NCBI GenBank assembly: GCA_947177425.1
Contig: CAMWUN010000037.1
Location: 1-34,713, forward strand
From: an uncultured bacterium
GTDB taxonomy: Bacteria; Bacillota; Clostridia; Lachnospirales; Lachnospiraceae
Reading direction: 5' to 3'
Length of the DNA stretch: 34,713 nucleotides
Of the stretch, positions 28,772 through 34,713 are shown one piece after another (position 1 is the stretch's first letter; the number at the start of each line of letters is the position of its first letter). Position numbers and translations under genes: made by a program. A model generated the notes under the pieces. The model was not told the DNA's origin. It saw only the letters and a list, made by a program, of their open reading frames with translations, and made no database searches.

Positions 28772-29117
28772 GGGATAGTAAAGGTTTCGACAGGGGTCTT
28801 GCAGCTGGAGAAGCTATCCGCAGGCGATGCGTCAAATCGCAAAAATAAATATAAACGCTGAAGATAATTTAGCATTCGCTGCCTAAGGGCGGCTGTCCGG
28901 CCTATTGCACCTACACATTAGGAACCGGGCATCGACTATGTAGGAAACGACACAGGCTAAGCTTTGCACCTGTGGGCGTATGATGAAGCTACTGAATAAA
29001 CCGGGATGTCGGTTTCCTGGTTTAGGAGGGAATGAGGGTTTCCCGAAATAAGCGACTATGATAGTAGAAGGACAGGGAATGGGTCTTTGGACGCGGGTTC
29101 GACTCCCGCCTATTCCA
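28772..29117 (+). ncRNA. ssrA: Transfer-messenger RNA (tmRNA)
   Basis: About 346 nt. The acceptor stem GGGATAG (28772-28778) pairs with CTATTCC (29110-29116) with one G-U; the T arm is GCGGGTTCGACTCCCGC. The 5' part has the usual GGTTTCGAC. The tag reading frame begins with resume codon GCA (28839-28841) and ends at TAA (28884-28886), encoding AKININAEDNLAFAA, a degradation tag with the typical hydrophobic LAFAA end. The discriminator A (29117) is followed by CTC, so CCA must be added after transcription. It rescues ribosomes stalled on non-stop mRNA together with SmpB and RNase R. The 3' end of ssrA is a common insertion site, and mobile DNA begins soon after it. Confidence 0.97.
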
Positions 29118-29192
29118 CTCATAAGAATATAACTTTGTGTTTTGATTATGTTATACGAATTATAACCAGACAACTGTTTTGTAATTGGGAAG

Positions 29193-29216
29193 TGAGCATT
29201 ATGCCAACAATGCTCA
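29193..29216. other. 8-bp hairpin in the gap after ssrA
   Basis: TGAGCATT (29193-29200) and AATGCTCA (29209-29216) pair perfectly around an 8-nt loop, 76 nt after the end of tmRNA. There is no T run. The rest of 29118-29312 shows no gene I can support. Confidence 0.4.
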
Positions 29217-29312
29217 TGTACGGTAAAGAAGCAAGCAACCGAAAACAAGAGATAGACCGCCAGCACCACACTATTCCGAACCAAAGAAACCAAAGACCAA
29301 AAGACAAGCACC

Positions 29313-29475
29313 GTGGAAATGTGTATAACTTGCTATTCCGTCATGGAAAAGTCCGTTCACAGAACATGGAAAAGCTAAAGTGCAGCTTTCCCACATTCTG
29401 CAAACAGACTTTCCCACAACTCCATAAGACAGCAAGTTATGCACATTACGCACAGTGCCGACTACTACGGAATCC
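29313..29475. repeat. Nested three-tier palindrome, copy 1
   Basis: The outer arms ATGTGTATAACTTGCT (29319-29334) and AGCAAGTTATGCACAT (29431-29446) pair over 16 positions with one G-T. The middle arms are CATGGAAAAGTC (29342-29353) and GACTTTCCCACA (29407-29418). The inner arms are ACATGGAAAAGCT (29364-29376) and AGCTTTCCCACAT (29384-29396), around the loop AAAGTGC. Each left arm repeats the theme TGTG/ATGG + A(T/A)AA and each right arm TT(A/T)(T/C)CCAC. It ends with a GACTACTACGGAA stretch shared with copy 2. An ORF reads through it on each strand, but the symmetry points to DNA or RNA structure. Confidence 0.75.
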
Positions 29476-29515
29476 TACTCATCATTTATATCTTGTTAAG
29501 ATAGCTAAAAATATT

Positions 29516-30448
29516 CTAATTTTCATATATGACAGCTACATCATGTATTCTACGCTTCATTTTGGCACGAATATTTAACGGCTCTAAGCACTCACATTTA
29601 TCGCCAAAACTAAGAAGAATATCGTAGTAATATTCGTTCTCTATAAATGGGAAATCGACAATGTAATATTCGCCACCATCGGGAGAAAAGTGTTCGTAAG
29701 TACAATAATCAAGAACTCTGTCCATGATAGATTTGTGAATACGAATTTTTATTGGTGTTTGCATGGATTTCAGAGTTTCCTCAAAGTCTAAAATCGGTTT
29801 TTGATATTCCCGTGGTGTAAATTTTTCCTTTTCCATATGTAAATTTGATATGCGGGATAATCTAAACAAACGAAAATCATTTCGTATAAGGCAATATCCT
29901 TGAAAATACCAATGACCGCTTTTTAGAACAAGTTGGTATGGCTCAACTGTCCGTATAGTTTTCTTTCCGTGATGTGCTATGTATTCAAAGGAAACCAGTC
30001 TGCAATCTTGTAAAGCTGTTTTTATAATTTCTAAATATGATTGTGTATTCTGGTTGCCAATCCAAGTGCTTAAATCTATACATATTTGATTTGTTTTTAA
30101 TTCTATGTCATTCGCTTTATCAGCAGGGATAAAACTTTTGACTTTTGCAAGGGCGTTTATTAGTTCATTTCCCCGTATCATGTCTGAAAGGCTTGAAAGC
30201 CCCATTAGGATAGCGGAAAGGTCAGCAGTTGAAAAAACATTTTTATCAATTTTATATTTTTGCATAATTTCAAAGCCGCCGCCCACTCCCGATATTGAAC
30301 GAATAGGAATCCCCGCCATGTTGATAGTATCTATATCCCGGTAAATTGTACGGGGAGATACTTCAAACATATCCGCTAATTCTTGCGCCCCTATACGCTC
30401 TTTATCAAGAAGTACCATGATAATGCTAACGAGCCTGTCAATTTTCAT
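29516..30448 (-). CDS. HTH-WYL transcriptional regulator (YafY type)
   Basis: About 310 residues from ATG 30448, chosen because AAAGGCGG stands 5 nt upstream; the open frame extends to 30499. The N-terminal DeoR-like winged HTH (1-60: KIDRLVSIIMVLLDKERIGAQELADMF, SPRTIYRDIDTINMAGIPI, GGGFEI) is followed by a WYL domain (FEYIAHHGKKTIRTVEPYQLVLKSGHWYFQGYCLIRNDFRLFRLSRIS) that senses a ligand, often nucleic acid or nucleotide, and a C-terminal WCX-like part. It is divergent from the DJ-1/PfpI gene and probably controls it through the dyad in the shared gap. Confidence 0.92.
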   Translation of the reverse strand: MKIDRLVSIIMVLLDKERIGAQELADMFEVSPRTIYRDIDTINMAGIPIRSISGVGGGFEIMQKYKIDKNVFSTADLSAILMGLSSLSDMIRGNELINALAKVKSFIPADKANDIELKTNQICIDLSTWIGNQNTQSYLEIIKTALQDCRLVSFEYIAHHGKKTIRTVEPYQLVLKSGHWYFQGYCLIRNDFRLFRLSRISNLHMEKEKFTPREYQKPILDFEETLKSMQTPIKIRIHKSIMDRVLDYCTYEHFSPDGGEYYIVDFPFIENEYYYDILLSFGDKCECLEPLNIRAKMKRRIHDVAVIYEN

Positions 30449-30477
30449 TTTGAGCCGCCTTTCAAATTCTAAATATT

Positions 30478-30513
30478 GTTGCCATAATGCTGTCAACAAT
30501 TACATGATACAAT
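30478..30513. promoter_or_regulatory. Divergent promoter region with dyad operator
   Basis: GTTGCCATAATGCTGTCAAC (30478-30497) is a dyad matching itself at 14 of 20 positions, with perfect GTTG/CAAC ends. On the minus strand TTGACA lies within it, a likely -35 for the WYL gene. On the plus strand TACAAT (30508-30513) is a possible -10 for the DJ-1/PfpI gene. One regulator bound here could control both directions. Confidence 0.5.
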
Positions 30514-30558
30514 AAAAAAGCAAACAAATCAATAAAGCAATGAAAACGGAGGAGATTT

Positions 30559-31197
30559 ATGTTTACAATCTATGTTTATGTTCTTGAAACTTTAGCCGAT
30601 TGGGAATTGGGCTATGTTACTTCGGAGCTACATTCCGGGCGATTTTTCAAAAAGGACGCTGAGTGTGTATCGCTTAAAACTGTCAGTTATTCAAAAGAAC
30701 CAATCCATACAATGGGAGGGCTAACAGTCATACCCGATTGTTTGATTGATGATGTTGTTGTAAGTGAAACAAGCGTATTGTTATTACCGGGTGCAGATAC
30801 ATGGAATGACCCAAAACATGGTGCAATCATTAAAAAGGCAGGCGAATTTCTCTCTATAGGAGCTACGGTTGGGGCAATTTGTGGGGCTACCACTGCACTT
30901 GCTAATTTTGGATTGCTGGATAATCGTCGGCATACCAGTAATGGACAGGGTTTTCTTGAAATGTTTTCACCCACCTATAAAGGACAGAATTTCTATATTG
31001 ATGAGCCATCTGTAGCAGATAATAACCTTATTACTGCAAATCCTACAGGCTCTCTGTTGTGGGCAAGACAAATCATTGAGCGTTTAGGAGTTTTTCAATC
31101 AGACACACTGGAATTTTGGTATGAGTATTTTAGTACCGGGAAAGCGGAATCTTTCTATGCCCTCATGCAAACATTACCACCTAACAATGAAAAATGA
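30559..31197 (+). CDS. DJ-1/PfpI-family protein
   Basis: A 212-residue DJ-1/PfpI (class I amidotransferase-like) protein: MFTIYVYVLETLADWELGYV with Glu 16, LLLPGADTWND, and the nucleophile elbow VGAICGATTAL with Cys 108. Similar stand-alone proteins act as glyoxalases, chaperones, or have unknown activity; the Cys-Glu pair suggests a working active site. GGAGGAG precedes ATG 30559. It is divergent from the WYL regulator, a pairing that suggests regulated expression, perhaps in response to a reactive compound. A terminator follows. Confidence 0.9.
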   Translation: MFTIYVYVLETLADWELGYVTSELHSGRFFKKDAECVSLKTVSYSKEPIHTMGGLTVIPDCLIDDVVVSETSVLLLPGADTWNDPKHGAIIKKAGEFLSIGATVGAICGATTALANFGLLDNRRHTSNGQGFLEMFSPTYKGQNFYIDEPSVADNNLITANPTGSLLWARQIIERLGVFQSDTLEFWYEYFSTGKAESFYALMQTLPPNNEK

Positions 31198-31227
31198 TAT
31201 ATCATCAATAATTTTTGATAGGCAGTT

Positions 31228-31264
31228 AAGGGGAGGACAGTAAAAATGCTACCGCCCCTTTTCA
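31228..31264 (+). terminator. Terminator after the DJ-1/PfpI gene
   Basis: AAGGGGAGG (31228-31236) pairs with CCGCCCCTT (31252-31260) with one mismatch, followed by TT. The T run is short but position and GC content fit. Confidence 0.65.
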
Positions 31265-31315
31265 GCATAAGTAACCTGTTGACACTATTTCCAGTAGAGG
31301 AAAGGGGGATTTTTT

Positions 31316-31774
31316 ATGCCTTGCACGGAAGCATACAAGGAACACATCATGTATACGTTTCACGGCTTTTGCAAAATTGTTATCCGCAATGCAGCTATTA
31401 CAGCATGGCGTGACCAGCACAGGCGGCACAAAAGAGAAATATCCCTTGAATACCTCACAGAAGAAAAGTTTTACCCTTTAGGCACAACGGACGAATATTT
31501 TGAAGCACCCTATGAAGAACACCCCGTTACGATATGCGGTCAGACAGTTATCCTCACCAATGGGGAGCTTGCCGCCGCCCTGTTATCTCTGCCGGAGAAG
31601 AACCGTGAAATCATTTTCCTTTACTTTTTCGGGGATTATACACAGCAGGAAATCGGGGAAATGTACGGACGCTGCCGGAGTACGACCGGGTATCAAATCC
31701 GCAGGACTTTACAGCTTCTGCACAAAGAAATGGAGGTGCTTTCACATGGGGAATCCGAACCTTTTACCCTATGA
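31316..31774 (+). CDS. Small sigma-70-like factor of conjugative transposons
   Basis: A 152-residue protein. The C-terminal half is sigma region 4: LPEKNREIIFLYFFGDYTQQEIGEMYGRCRSTTGYQIRRTLQLLHKEM, a helix-turn-helix that contacts the -35 element. The N-terminal half (FHGFCKIVIRNAAITAWRDQHRRHKREISLEYL) is the basic region seen in the small sigma-like proteins of Tn916/Tn1549-type elements, where they activate element genes. GAGGAAAGGGGG precedes ATG 31316. It overlaps the next gene by 29 nt, as in Tn916-type regulatory modules. Confidence 0.85.
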   Translation: MPCTEAYKEHIMYTFHGFCKIVIRNAAITAWRDQHRRHKREISLEYLTEEKFYPLGTTDEYFEAPYEEHPVTICGQTVILTNGELAAALLSLPEKNREIIFLYFFGDYTQQEIGEMYGRCRSTTGYQIRRTLQLLHKEMEVLSHGESEPFTL

Positions 31775-31958
31775 AACGATTGTCCGGGCGACCAGCGGAG
31801 AGCCGGAAGCCGTGGACGAGGTTTTACGGCATTACAGCAAACGAATCCGAATCGCCGCTATTGAAAACGGGTATATCGACAGGGATACGGAGGACAGCAT
31901 AAAACAGCGGCTTGTCACTGCCCTGTTCAAATTCCGTTTTGATGAACGGGAAGTATAA
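31746..31958 (+). CDS. Tn916-type helix-turn-helix partner protein
   Basis: A 70-residue protein from ATG 31746 with GGAGGTG upstream inside the sigma-like gene. MGNPNLLPYETIVRATSGEPEAVDEVLRHYSKRI and RDTEDSIKQRLVTALFKFRFDE are typical of the small helix-turn-helix domain protein that follows the sigma-like gene in Tn916/Tn1549 elements. It is probably co-translated with it and needed for regulation of element genes. The exact role is not known. Confidence 0.85.
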   Translation: MGNPNLLPYETIVRATSGEPEAVDEVLRHYSKRIRIAAIENGYIDRDTEDSIKQRLVTALFKFRFDEREV

Positions 31959-31966
31959 GAAATTGC

Positions 31967-31995
31967 TTCCATTTTTGGAAAAACGGATATATAAT
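31967..31995 (+). promoter_or_regulatory. Possible promoter of the XRE gene
   Basis: TTCCAT (31967-31972) and a perfect TATAAT (31990-31995) are spaced by 17 bp. The leader up to 32119 contains CGACAA/TTGTCG (32003-32008, 32030-32035), a 6-bp dyad close to the expected transcription start. Confidence 0.45.
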
Positions 31996-32119
31996 AAAGC
32001 AACGACAAATCGGAATCGGTAGACATACCTTGTCGGGTAATAAAATAAGGCATTTCTCGCTTTGTGTCCTGTTTTTTATTGGGCAGTTTTGATAGGATTT
32101 TTCTGAAAGGAGGAAAAGC

Positions 32120-32629
32120 ATGAACCAAGAAAAAATCGGAAAATTCTTAAAAGAACTCCGTAAGCAAAAAGGACTTACCCAAGAACAGATTGCAGAAAAA
32201 TTTAATGTATCAAACAGAACAATATCCCGTTGGGAGAATGGCAACAATATGCCGGACTTAGATATTTTGATTGAAATATCAGATTATTATGAAGTTGACT
32301 TACGGGAAATTCTAAATGGAGAAAGGAAAAGCGAGAATATGGATAAAGAAATGAAAGAAACTGTATTGCGGGCAGTGGATTATACAAACGCAGAAGCGGA
32401 ACGATACAATAAGCGTGTACGGATATGCAATGGGATAGCAATGCTTTTAGTATTAGCCTACACTATCATTAAAGGAACAAGCCTTTATGATAATCCGACA
32501 GTTATGGCTGGACTGGATATTGTACAGGGATTTGCAGTTGGAATGCTTTTGGTGGGTTTGCTATATTCAAGCCGCTATGGTGCGAGGATTAGAGCATTCA
32601 AAAAACGACTGATGAACAGGCAAGAATAA
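32120..32629 (+). CDS. XRE-family regulator with C-terminal membrane helices
   Basis: 169 residues. The N-terminal XRE HTH (about 6-62: FLKELRKQKGLTQEQIAEKFNVSNRTISRWENGNNMPDLDILIEISDYY) binds DNA. A linker is followed by two hydrophobic segments (GIAMLLVLAYTIIKG and GLDIVQGFAVGMLLVGLLY) that would anchor it in the membrane. Such HTH-membrane proteins are common in Firmicutes and may sense envelope state. AAAGGAGG precedes ATG 32120. It is followed by small immunity-like genes. Confidence 0.9.
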   Translation: MNQEKIGKFLKELRKQKGLTQEQIAEKFNVSNRTISRWENGNNMPDLDILIEISDYYEVDLREILNGERKSENMDKEMKETVLRAVDYTNAEAERYNKRVRICNGIAMLLVLAYTIIKGTSLYDNPTVMAGLDIVQGFAVGMLLVGLLYSSRYGARIRAFKKRLMNRQE

Positions 32630-32655
32630 ATCGAAGTTTGAAAGGAGTAACAGAC

Positions 32656-32934
32656 ATGGAATTTCCTTTTTATGATTCACCCGATACTGCTACGATTATC
32701 TGTTGTCATATATTGGAGCGTCAGGCACCTATTCTATATGTATCACATGATGAAGATGACGGAATGTGGCAATTTCTATGCGGGGAAACACACGAAACAG
32801 ATGAAGCAAAGTTAGTATCTTTAAAATGGGTTTTTAATTTAGACAACTCTGTCAGTACCTTAAAGGATATGCCTTGCGGTTACTATGCAGAGAGAAAAAA
32901 CCAAGATGATGATTGGATTATCAGAAAGCGATAA
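32656..32934 (+). CDS. DUF2185/Imm33-like small protein
   Basis: A 92-residue protein from ATG 32656 (AAAGGAG upstream). The pattern CCHILERQAPILYVSHDEDDGMWQFLCGETHETDEAKLVSLKWVFNLDNSVSTLKDMPCGYYAERKNQDDDWII matches DUF2185/Imm33-like proteins, which occur as immunity proteins of contact-dependent toxins. No toxin gene is next to it, so it would be an orphan immunity gene or have another role. A repeated hairpin motif lies directly at its end (32928-32954). Confidence 0.75.
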   Translation: MEFPFYDSPDTATIICCHILERQAPILYVSHDEDDGMWQFLCGETHETDEAKLVSLKWVFNLDNSVSTLKDMPCGYYAERKNQDDDWIIRKR

Positions 32935-32954
32935 CTTCCGGTTTGGCGGGAAGA
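32928..32954. repeat. Gene-end motif, copy 1
   Basis: The sequence AGCGATAACTTCCGGTTTGG and onwards (32928-32954) at the end of the DUF2185-like gene resembles the sequence at the end of the CPCC gene (33642-33669). Both can form a small hairpin with TTCC on the left. See the separate finding. Confidence 0.5.
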
Positions 32955-32995
32955 TGTAGGAAGCGAAAAACCGGGATTTGCGGAAGGTATTTACT

Positions 32996-33259
32996 ATGAA
33001 AAAAGCAGATATAAAAGCAGTTGTTGAAAATAGGTTCCGTGAACTTGGTGCAAAGCAATTAGAATTATATCCGTCAGGTATTTGTTGGACAATGAACGGA
33101 AAATTTTTTAAAGTATCTACATTAACAGACTTTTGGGTATTAGAGTGGACTGATAATCATTCTTATGCTTCAAATTACTGTTTTGAAGATATTGACCCAA
33201 TGCCATATGATATATCTGAGCAAGAAATAATCTGGCAGGTAGATAAACTATTATTGTAA
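32996..33259 (+). CDS. Small hypothetical protein, immunity-like context
   Basis: An 87-residue protein from ATG 32996 with GGAAGG upstream. MKKADIKAVVENRFRELGAKQLELYPSGICWTMNGKFFKVSTLTDFWVLEWTDNHSYASNYCFEDIDPMPYDISEQEIIWQVDKLLL is rich in Trp and acidic residues. I do not recognise the family with certainty. Size, acidity and neighbours suggest another immunity-type protein. It has no membrane segment or signal peptide. Confidence 0.7.
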   Translation: MKKADIKAVVENRFRELGAKQLELYPSGICWTMNGKFFKVSTLTDFWVLEWTDNHSYASNYCFEDIDPMPYDISEQEIIWQVDKLLL

Positions 33260-33285
33260 ATTGGGATTTAAGAGGTGATTAGGTG

Positions 33286-33354
33286 ATGGAAGATAATATC
33301 TATATCAAAATAAAAGCAGTATTAAAGCATAAGCCAAAGGAATTTCAGTATTAG
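33286..33354 (+). pseudogene. 22-codon gene fragment with ribosome binding site
   Basis: GAGGTG precedes ATG 33286, and the frame reads MEDNIYIKIKAVLKHKPKEF before stopping at TAG 33352. It is probably the 5' remnant of another small cassette gene in the immunity-like run; a real micropeptide is possible. Confidence 0.4.
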
Positions 33355-33389
33355 ACGAATCGAAATATTTTGGAGGATTGAAATACAGA

Positions 33390-33644
33390 ATGAAAAAATA
33401 TCAATGTCCTTGTTGTGGATATTTTACCTATAATGTTCCAGCGAACGAAGATTGTGGGTATATTTGCCCCGTCTGCTTTTGGGAGAATGACCCGTTCATT
33501 ACTTCTGATAGCGAACCAAGTGACTCTAATCATGGAATAACTCTAAAAGAGGCAAAATTTAATTTCCTACAATTTGGTGCTTGTGAAAAAGAAATGTTAT
33601 GTCATGTTCGCCCACCAAGAAATAATGAAAAGGAAATCTCATAG
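33390..33644 (+). CDS. Cysteine-rich CPCC-domain protein
   Basis: An 84-residue protein from ATG 33390 (GGAGG at 33372-33376). YQCPCCGYFTY and CGYICPVCFWENDPF form two CxxC pairs for zinc binding, followed by SNHGITLKEAKFNFLQFGAC, which is the CPCC-domain pattern. These proteins are often found among toxin-immunity genes; their molecular role is not established. A gene-end repeat follows at 33642-33669. Confidence 0.88.
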   Translation: MKKYQCPCCGYFTYNVPANEDCGYICPVCFWENDPFITSDSEPSDSNHGITLKEAKFNFLQFGACEKEMLCHVRPPRNNEKEIS

Positions 33645-33669
33645 CGACAACTTCCAGTTTTCCTGGCAG
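33642..33669. repeat. Gene-end motif, copy 2
   Basis: The sequence AGCGACAACTTCCAGTTTTC and onwards, at the end of the CPCC gene, resembles the motif at the end of the DUF2185-like gene (32928-32954). The hairpin centre here is CCAG-TTTTC-CTGG. Confidence 0.5.
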
Positions 33670-33747
33670 AATCACTGCGTCCAGAGCCAACAGACTTGTG
33701 AGAAATTCAAGTTTGTGGAATTATAGTCAGCTAAAAATTGAATAACC

Positions 33748-33807
33748 GCCGTTGCATAGAACGGCACACCAAGACAGGAAATCAAGAAAAGGTTTCCTGT
33801 TTTTTTG
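33748..33807 (+). terminator. Hairpin and strong terminator
   Basis: GCCGTT (33748-33753) pairs with AACGGC (33760-33765), then ACAGGAAA (33774-33781) pairs with TTTCCTGT (33793-33800), followed by a T7 run. The second part is a good intrinsic terminator. The two hairpins may also be the end of a small RNA. Confidence 0.65.
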
Positions 33808-34130
33808 TGCCCATTTTTGGCATTTTCAAAAATCGCCAGTATTATGCCGTGCAAAGGGGGATAAAGAGAAATTCCTCTACCCTGTTTGGTAGTTTTCAAA
33901 TTTTTTGTGGTGTAGGGAATGAAAAGAAAATGAAGAAATTTCCGCAAATCTCCGTCATTTTTGCTTTGCATGGTGTTGTAGGTATTAGTGGGAGAAATAC
34001 CGCCGCATAAGTTGACAGAATCCCAGACCCGCCCGTCGAGGGTATCAGCGGAAGCCCACACAGAGGAAGCCGCTACTTTTTTAGAGCAAGGATATAAAGA
34101 CCGGGCATGAGGTACGCGCCCCTACCGGCA
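33808..34130. other. Gene-free stretch upstream of palindrome copy 2
   Basis: About 320 bp without a supported gene. It holds a 26-codon ORF (33930-34010), a terminator-like hairpin AGCGG/CCGCT with T run at 34047-34083, and the first copy of an 18-bp repeat at 34111-34128. Confidence 0.4.
34047..34083 (+). terminator. Terminator-like hairpin
   Basis: AGCGG (34047-34051) pairs with CCGCT (34070-34074), followed by TTTTTT at about 34077-34082. Direct repeats of GGAAGCC lie inside the loop. No gene ends nearby, so it would end a non-coding transcript. Confidence 0.4.
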
Positions 34131-34389
34131 TGGAAATGTGGATAACAGGCTATGGGATCATGGATAACTCTATTCACAGCACATGGAAAAGCCAAAGTGC
34201 GGCTTTCCCACGTCCTGCAAACAGAGTTACCCACAATCCCAAAAGAGCAGCCAGTTACCCACATTCCCACACCGCTGACGACTACGGAAACACACCCTTT
34301 CCTACCTGTCATTCATAAAAAGATTTTTTAAGGAGCTGATCGGAAATCAAGAACGTAAACACGGGCTACATGGTACGCGCCCCTACCGG
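34111..34389. repeat. 18-bp direct repeat flanking palindrome copy 2
   Basis: GGTACGCGCCCCTACCGG is present at 34111-34128 and identically at 34372-34389; each copy is preceded by a related CGGGC stretch. The copies flank the palindrome at 34131-34289. They may be binding sites for an element protein or marks of a small duplication. Confidence 0.7.
34131..34289. repeat. Nested three-tier palindrome, copy 2
   Basis: The outer arms are ATGTGGATAACAGGC (34136-34150) and GCCAGTTACCCACAT (34250-34264). The middle arms, GGGATCATGGATAACTCT (34154-34171) and AGAGTTACCCACAATCCC (34223-34240), pair at 15 of 18 positions. The inner arms are ACATGGAAAAGCC (34181-34193) and GGCTTTCCCACGT (34201-34213), with the loop AAAGTGC as in copy 1. 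TGTGGATAA at 34137-34145 is the exact reverse complement of the DnaA box TTATCCACA. Compared with copy 1 the stem bases differ but still pair. Confidence 0.78.
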
Positions 34390-34559: not shown

Positions 34560-34691
34560 ATGGCATTTTTTAATTCAGCAGTAGGCGTTTTGCAGACACT
34601 TGTTGTAGCACTTGGAGCAGGGCTTGGCATTTGGGGCGTTGTCAATCTCATGGAGGGCTACGGCAATGACAACCGTGCGACACGTTCGTAA
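34560..34691 (+). CDS. Maff2-type conjugation membrane protein, interrupted
   Basis: ATG 34560 (AAAGGA upstream) begins MAFFNSAVGVLQTLVVALGA, followed by GLGIWGVVNLMEGYGNDN, the N-terminal part of Maff2-family proteins of Tn1549-like conjugative elements, a small membrane protein of the transfer apparatus. Family members continue with more Gly-rich sequence and a second membrane segment. Here the frame changes after NDN to RATRS and stops at 34691, giving 43 residues. The divergence falls at GTGCG (34674-34678), the 5' consensus of group II introns, so the gene is probably split by an intron whose rest lies beyond the window. Confidence 0.8.
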   Translation: MAFFNSAVGVLQTLVVALGAGLGIWGVVNLMEGYGNDNRATRS

Positions 34692-34713
34692 CTGAAAAGG
34701 TTACGCACTAAGT
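34674..34713 (+). mobile_element. Possible 5' end of a group II intron
   Basis: GTGCG, the conserved start of bacterial group II introns, appears exactly where the Maff2 coding sequence loses family similarity. The next bases contain GTAAC-TGAAAAG-GTTAC, a short stem as expected early in domain I. Only 40 nt are visible, so the call depends on downstream sequence. Confidence 0.5.

Follow-up and report, generated by a model that had tools for sequence, protein, structure and literature searches.

What might a long, nested palindrome be doing in bacterial DNA when it occurs twice within one stretch? The stretch in question (hereafter the window, meaning all 34,713 nucleotides analysed) is contig CAMWUN010000037.1 of an uncultured Lachnospiraceae bacterium, and the palindromes are two copies of a module of about 163 bp. 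We consider it roughly an even call that this module acts as a single-strand origin (sso), or else as a priming structure on single-stranded DNA (ssDNA) closely related to one, in the integrative mobilizable elements (IMEs) and integrative conjugative elements (ICEs) of gut Clostridia. The hairpin recurs and usually faces the same way relative to transfer genes, and it may therefore mark the point from which the transferred single strand is copied. How that strand becomes double-stranded in ICEs and IMEs is described as little known, ICEBs1 and some plasmid-like examples being the exceptions (PMC4595007). If our reading is right, the module would be a defined, strand-specific and widespread sso candidate in gut-bacterial elements, which in some cases bring resistance genes with them, and it could be sought elsewhere with the covariance model built here. 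The hairpins, and the sequence beside the first of them, lie as follows:

29313 to 29475, minus strand: hairpin copy 1, about 65 bp including G.U pairs (R1 176.2 bits on the minus strand, 69.6 on the plus strand)
34130 to 34292, minus strand: hairpin copy 2, folding on the minus strand (R1 172.8 bits on the minus strand, 76.2 on the plus strand)
29476 to 29500, minus strand: a stretch that is pyrimidine-rich on the plus strand, after the hairpin tail GGAATCC, with a comparable stretch at other placements

Each copy (29313-29475 and 34131-34289) is an imperfect palindrome of three tiers around the loop AAAGTGC; the two are 82% identical across 116 bp and are spaced 4817 bp apart. The original prediction, made by a model from the letters of the window, had placed both copies and their common loop correctly, as well as the paired changes in the middle tier. 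Its outer tiers do differ between the copies, but the pair AACAGGC/GCCAGTT of copy 2 holds one mispair, and the strand specificity of the palindromes had been missed altogether. The left arms carry GGATAA/GGAAAA and the right arms TTACCC/TTTCCC, and the minus strand of either copy forms a near-perfect hairpin of about 65 bp. The fold is strand-specific because the tier mismatches are A.C on the plus strand but G.T or G.U on the minus strand. With RNA parameters, copy 2 reaches -100.8 kcal/mol on the minus strand (z -13.4) and -59.5 kcal/mol on the plus strand (z -6.6), and the difference remains large with DNA parameters (-47.4 kcal/mol, z -11.0, versus -28.4, z -4.8). The minus strand of copy 1 folds at -81.4 kcal/mol with RNA parameters (z -10.3); over an identical 159 nt, its strands give -80.3 (minus) and -53.4 kcal/mol (plus).

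This strand bias holds across homologues: in every one of 62 distinct sequences the complement folds less stably than the folded strand, the median difference being 34.8 kcal/mol (of 66 rows, one, an opposite-strand match at the same place, was removed). The model stem cells of these sequences hold 585 G.T, 20 A.C and 44 other mispairs, a count that is favoured by the structure having been derived on the folded strand. The stem also covaries. Across 33 distinct rows, 52 pairs and 1715 pair cells, 97.7% of cells hold their pairing versus 92.1% after shuffling, and both sides have changed at 18 of the 52 pairs versus 8.6 in shuffles; none of 500 shuffles matched the observed value on any of five measures, and controls in which the structure was slid along had 38-52% of cells paired. 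Selection on the folded form, which had been proposed together with the idea of folding both copies and building a covariance model, is thus supported by more paired changes than expected. A coding region with synonymous-site bias is ruled out, as the module follows unrelated genes and has sharp borders. Beyond the stem, an exact CTCATT is found in 16 of 62 distinct hairpin flanks versus 15 of 1360 control windows.

A motif resembling the DnaA box is repeated in the stem, about three times per hairpin, in line with the repeated theme and single exact inverse box of the original prediction. That box, TGTGGATAA, lies at 34137-34145 in copy 2, while both outer arms of copy 1 fit TTATNCACA (29320-29328, inverted; 29437-29445, direct). 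More generally, the 5' arm repeats [TC]GTGNRWAA[CGA] and the 3' arm a matching [GCT]TTWTNCAY R-type motif, at 2.64 and 2.62 occurrences per hairpin versus 0.01 and 0.03 in shuffles, the motif having been defined after the sequences had been inspected. Three motifs stand on each arm in 37 of 64 hairpins, and even a divergent hairpin with a different interior (L142) keeps two motif tiers. Of 62 sequences, 56 have a perfect TTWTNCACA on the folded strand and 44 have one on the complement, with variation mostly at N; the inner tiers have no perfect box on either arm. The A-site of the ABC primosome is an ssDNA hairpin whose stem includes a DnaA box, and the module resembles it in carrying its DnaA-box-like sequence in a stem. 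Unlike the A-site, the module is three-tiered and has degenerate inner tiers with G.T pairs.

The module is associated with conjugative and mobilizable elements, occupying a variety of positions within serine-recombinase IMEs and Tn1549/Tn5252-like ICEs. Its borders are sharp, with the right-hand sequence changing at the border and left-hand homology ending at about -104, -18 or -5 depending on the class of placement. In class A, the hairpin lies 104 bp inside an IME 5' end that starts ATGCTCATGTACGG, a start common to 19 contexts with unrelated sequence to the left, about 10 of them Maff2. Class B hairpins follow a large serine recombinase (L066, L081), class C hairpins a MobA/VirD2-type (MOBP) relaxase (L077, L082, L111, L112, L126, L135), and class D hairpins lie between VirD4 and Maff2 (L064, L080, L101, L139); there are further placements, for example near a phosphate-uptake-like operon (L070, L072). 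Among 30 loci with the IME 5' end, 25 keep it nearly to its inner edge: 8 of these have the long hairpin, 11 a short AT-rich hairpin and 2 another short hairpin, and the short forms (13 of 25) are followed by the same tail as the long one. Judging from these ends, the long hairpin can be swapped for an unrelated short one at the same spot; the AT-rich form replaces or accompanies it, with the same outer tail, at L155:3002-3055, L128:3249-3302, L139:9661-9714 and L143:9901-9954. The idea that the hairpin is universal at IME ends was rejected, several ends lacking it.

With respect to transfer genes, the orientation of the hairpin is mostly constant. A MOBP or MobC match (identity 30% or more, no further than 10 kb from the hairpin) accompanies 28 of 68 hairpin loci. 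In 26 of the 28, the closest such gene has the folded strand as its antisense strand, counts that are not independent, given that many loci are close relatives or share an element (both L099 copies, for instance). The nearest ORF of any kind is, by contrast, mixed in direction (39 plus and 27 minus on the left, 39 plus and 21 minus on the right). By match, agreement is 14/14 for MOBP_a, 10/10 for MOBP_b, 2/3 for MOBP_c, 26/27 for MobC and 19/19 for Maff2; MOBP_a relaxases lie downstream of the hairpin and MOBP_b upstream, and all agree in orientation. In RP4, the relaxase gene is described as lying in the trailing region and as being transcribed with the transfer strand as template (PMC7314908); by this analogy, the folded strand would be the transferred strand. 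Reading the nic site directly from the inverted repeat upstream of mobC (CAAGATTC/GAATCTTG) fails, as the repeat is alike on both strands and does not settle which one is nicked.

The module is also widespread. A blastn-type search found it in 23 of 299 genomes sampled from the family, the Lachnospiraceae, and, with copy 1 as query, in 18 of 60 relatives, with up to 13 matches in a single genome. Under strict filters, the covariance model (33 sequences) matched 9 of 196 genomes of the order, and a core pattern matched at least 120 genome-contig stretches, the matches listed including Lachnospiraceae, Oscillospiraceae, Acetatifactor, Parablautia, Acutalibacter and Flintibacter. A phage or plasmid element was rejected: blastn against 72,556 plasmid records gave no match, and the sole match among 50,697 phage records, MT839717, encodes VirD4, Maff2 and regulators around its hairpin (open reading frames, ORFs, read by eye rather than by Pfam scan) and looks like a piece of an ICE. 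The core pattern also matches two contigs of a viral collection. One of them (L360, 14.8 kb) is matched twice, at a spacing of 659 bp, resembling the VirD4-hairpin-Maff2-hairpin order of L099.

How would such a module work as an sso? A relaxase would nick the origin of transfer (oriT), and one strand would be displaced or enter the recipient. The transferred strand, which would be antisense to the gene of the MOBP relaxase, would fold at the module into a long stem presenting the DnaA-box-like motif (TGTGGRWAAC over GTTWTCCAYR) about three times to a protein, presumably DnaA or a similar one, that binds the stem. Replication would be primed by the folded strand, second-strand synthesis starting beside the stem and across the conserved tail. 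In the duplex, the arms would be palindromes with mismatches, and this should make the sequence less active and less prone to instability. A more specific version, which we put forward tentatively and with more doubt than belief, is a new sso class shared by many ICEs and IMEs of gut Clostridia. In it, the transferred strand would form a 65-bp hairpin with three DnaA-box-like composite sites completed only by folding (TTATCC on one arm, TGTGG on the other), so that the host initiator would load the replicative helicase on incoming DNA and not on the integrated duplex.

Several known systems provide points of comparison. As with known ssos, the extended hairpin forms on a single strand, and its host element goes through an ssDNA stage. 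In IMESag-rpsI and pMV158, the lagging-strand origin ssoA is described as lying directly after the relaxase gene (PMC5090054), which is where class C hairpins stand. An sso is reported to work in one orientation only, and that of pBAA1, with another sequence and a kept structure, still works (PMC4595007). An orientation-dependent ssDNA structure on a mobilizable or conjugative element is thus a property described for ssoA and for Sso1 of ICEBs1 (PMC5090054, PMC4595007) and a candidate property here; unlike the three stem-loops described for Sso1 and pBAA1, the module forms one 65-bp stem with three motif tiers. IME_Rho_tet elements are described as serine-recombinase IMEs, often in Maff2, with mobC, a relaxase and a 21-bp end repeat (PMC12904643). 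Class A hairpins lie inside the 5' end of such an IME, and the window carries a different set of cargo genes; the main text of that paper mentions neither hairpin nor palindrome. In one IME inserted at Maff2, an EF-G-like, ribosomal-protection-type gene follows the hairpin (L069:7113-9032). Full-text literature searches, with subscription papers mostly outside their scope, returned no description of the hairpin or of an sso in such elements.

A number of observations weigh against an sso. The energies of copy 1 with DNA parameters are nearly equal on both strands (minus -37.7 kcal/mol, z -7.6; plus -33.0, z -8.0). The ssoA type is marked by the CS-6 motif, TAGCGW, which occurs in only 1 of 66 rows, and the empty plasmid search sets the module apart from the plasmid ssoA, ssoU, ssoT and ssoW, types that were not aligned individually. 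Four of the 25 intact IME 5' ends have no complete hairpin (one of these at a contig end), and among 11 other elements at Maff2 codon 43 there are 4 with a short hairpin, 7 with none and 0 with the long one; a twelfth insertion there is a group II intron. Orientation is less uniform for VirD4 (27 same, 5 opposite; 27/32) and the serine recombinase (24 same, 7 opposite; 24/31), and MobA/MobL relaxases, which are outside the 26 of 28, show no preference (5 same, 4 opposite), all 4 opposite matches being in L074, which has hairpins in both orientations. The hairpin of L078 follows a relaxase directly yet has the opposite orientation, and that of L103 runs counter to a MobC match that is weak (30%) and lies at a distance of 6.7 kb. 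The relatedness of the loci belongs here too, and by placement class the orientation agreement is a handful of events.

The alternatives were weighed as well. By analogy with known systems, the module seems to fit an sso better than an RNA or a promoter, and of the three options first offered, it is the single-strand origin that has gained support, with a structured RNA and a double-strand initiator array faring less well. A structured RNA (antisense, processing or decoy) transcribed from the minus strand strikes us as unlikely. G.U pairs are natural in RNA, the RNA z scores (-13.4, -10.3) are very strong, and a 9/12 promoter-like site on the minus strand (29499-29472) immediately precedes copy 1. 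Yet promoter-like sites upstream of the fold occur in 30 of 60 loci versus 48.1% in shuffles, the window region holds 22 such sites versus 16.1 +/- 3.8, the flank that would carry a promoter changes at the module border, and placement is not tied to one gene. An Rfam 15 search of the window at gathering score returned the tmRNA and no family for the hairpin. A simple RNA gene was lowered in our estimate by the promoter signal, which does not rise above shuffles over the 60 loci.

Only marginally less credible, and still improbable, is an ssDNA promoter of the Frpo/ssi kind, at which RNA polymerase would transcribe the transferred strand in its folded form soon after it enters the cell, so expressing the genes to the right of the hairpin. 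Like Frpo and ssi of F and ColIb-P9, the module would be a transferred-strand hairpin in a conjugative setting (PMC11541004, PMC8708921), its strand and orientation would fit, and Frpo is described as also yielding primer RNA (PMC11541004). A crude ORF picker places the nearest left ORF on the plus strand at 39 loci and on the minus strand at 27; the right neighbour is on the plus strand in 39 of the 60 loci having one (21 minus), but the gene to the right of copy 1 runs on the minus strand. Furthermore, unlike Frpo/ssi, the module has no -35/-10 pattern above shuffles: matches of at least 9/12 on the plus strand through the hairpin occur in 14 of 60 loci versus 49.8% of shuffles.

There is little to recommend a recombination or attachment hairpin (attC-like) that exchanges cargo, or a small hairpin transposon moved by a transposase in trans. 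While the change of right-hand sequence at the module border and the up to 13 matches within one genome would suit either, the left borders vary by class, the -104 border of class A is the end of the whole IME, and no fixed ends with target duplications were seen. Equally hard to sustain is a double-strand binding array for DnaA or another initiator, or an insulator or terminator, with folding as a by-product: the perfect TTWTNCACA boxes favour an array, but the inner tiers have no perfect box on either arm, the strand-specific G.T pairing and the covariation would be left unexplained by a duplex array, and an intrinsic terminator is ruled out, no terminator-like site having been found at copy 1 or copy 2.

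Returning to the window with an sso as the preferred reading, we can ask how its two hairpins relate to each other. They had been taken to bracket the cargo of one element. By their surroundings, the copies instead belong to two: copy 1 to the 5' end of a truncated IME that lies beside the tmRNA and makes up the intervening stretch, and copy 2 to a separate ICE fragment, between its VirD4 side and Maff2. The remaining features are:

29210 to 29312, plus strand: IME left (5') end, starting ATGCTCATGTACGG, about 100 bp conserved, with a sharp left boundary (19 contexts; homology break at about -104)
29516 to 33644, no single strand: IME cargo and regulators by Pfam, namely a WYL regulator (minus strand), DJ-1/PfpI, a sigma-70 region 4 protein, a helix-turn-helix protein, small proteins and Cys_rich_CPCC
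33766 to 34089, plus strand: block resembling in sequence the mobC-upstream (oriT-like) region of these IMEs and broken off within the conserved AGAGCAAG
34087 to 34128, plus strand: direct repeat, first copy (GGTACGCGCCCCTACCGG core)
34348 to 34389, plus strand: direct repeat, second copy, upstream of Maff2
34560 to 34674, plus strand: 5' part of the ICE Maff2 gene, interrupted (Pfam Maff2 1-43 or 1-44 of 70)

The tmRNA ends at 29120 and the IME starts at about 29210, some 90 bp past the tmRNA 3' end; smpB-like and RNase R-like genes precede the IME end (28772-29210). At its other side, the IME remnant (33766-34092) stops partway through the inverted repeat that precedes mobC. This repeat may be a site of nicking, and the break is possibly transfer- or relaxase-related. 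The direct repeats, which are 76% identical, flank hairpin copy 2. Further right (34560-34713), the Maff2 gene breaks off after codon 43-44, where it is interrupted by sequence that starts GTGCGACACG and matches the starts of group II introns at the same insertion point in three other loci (L228, L231, L232). Many genomes of the family have Maff2 interrupted at codon 43-44 or 51, making it a common insertion point.

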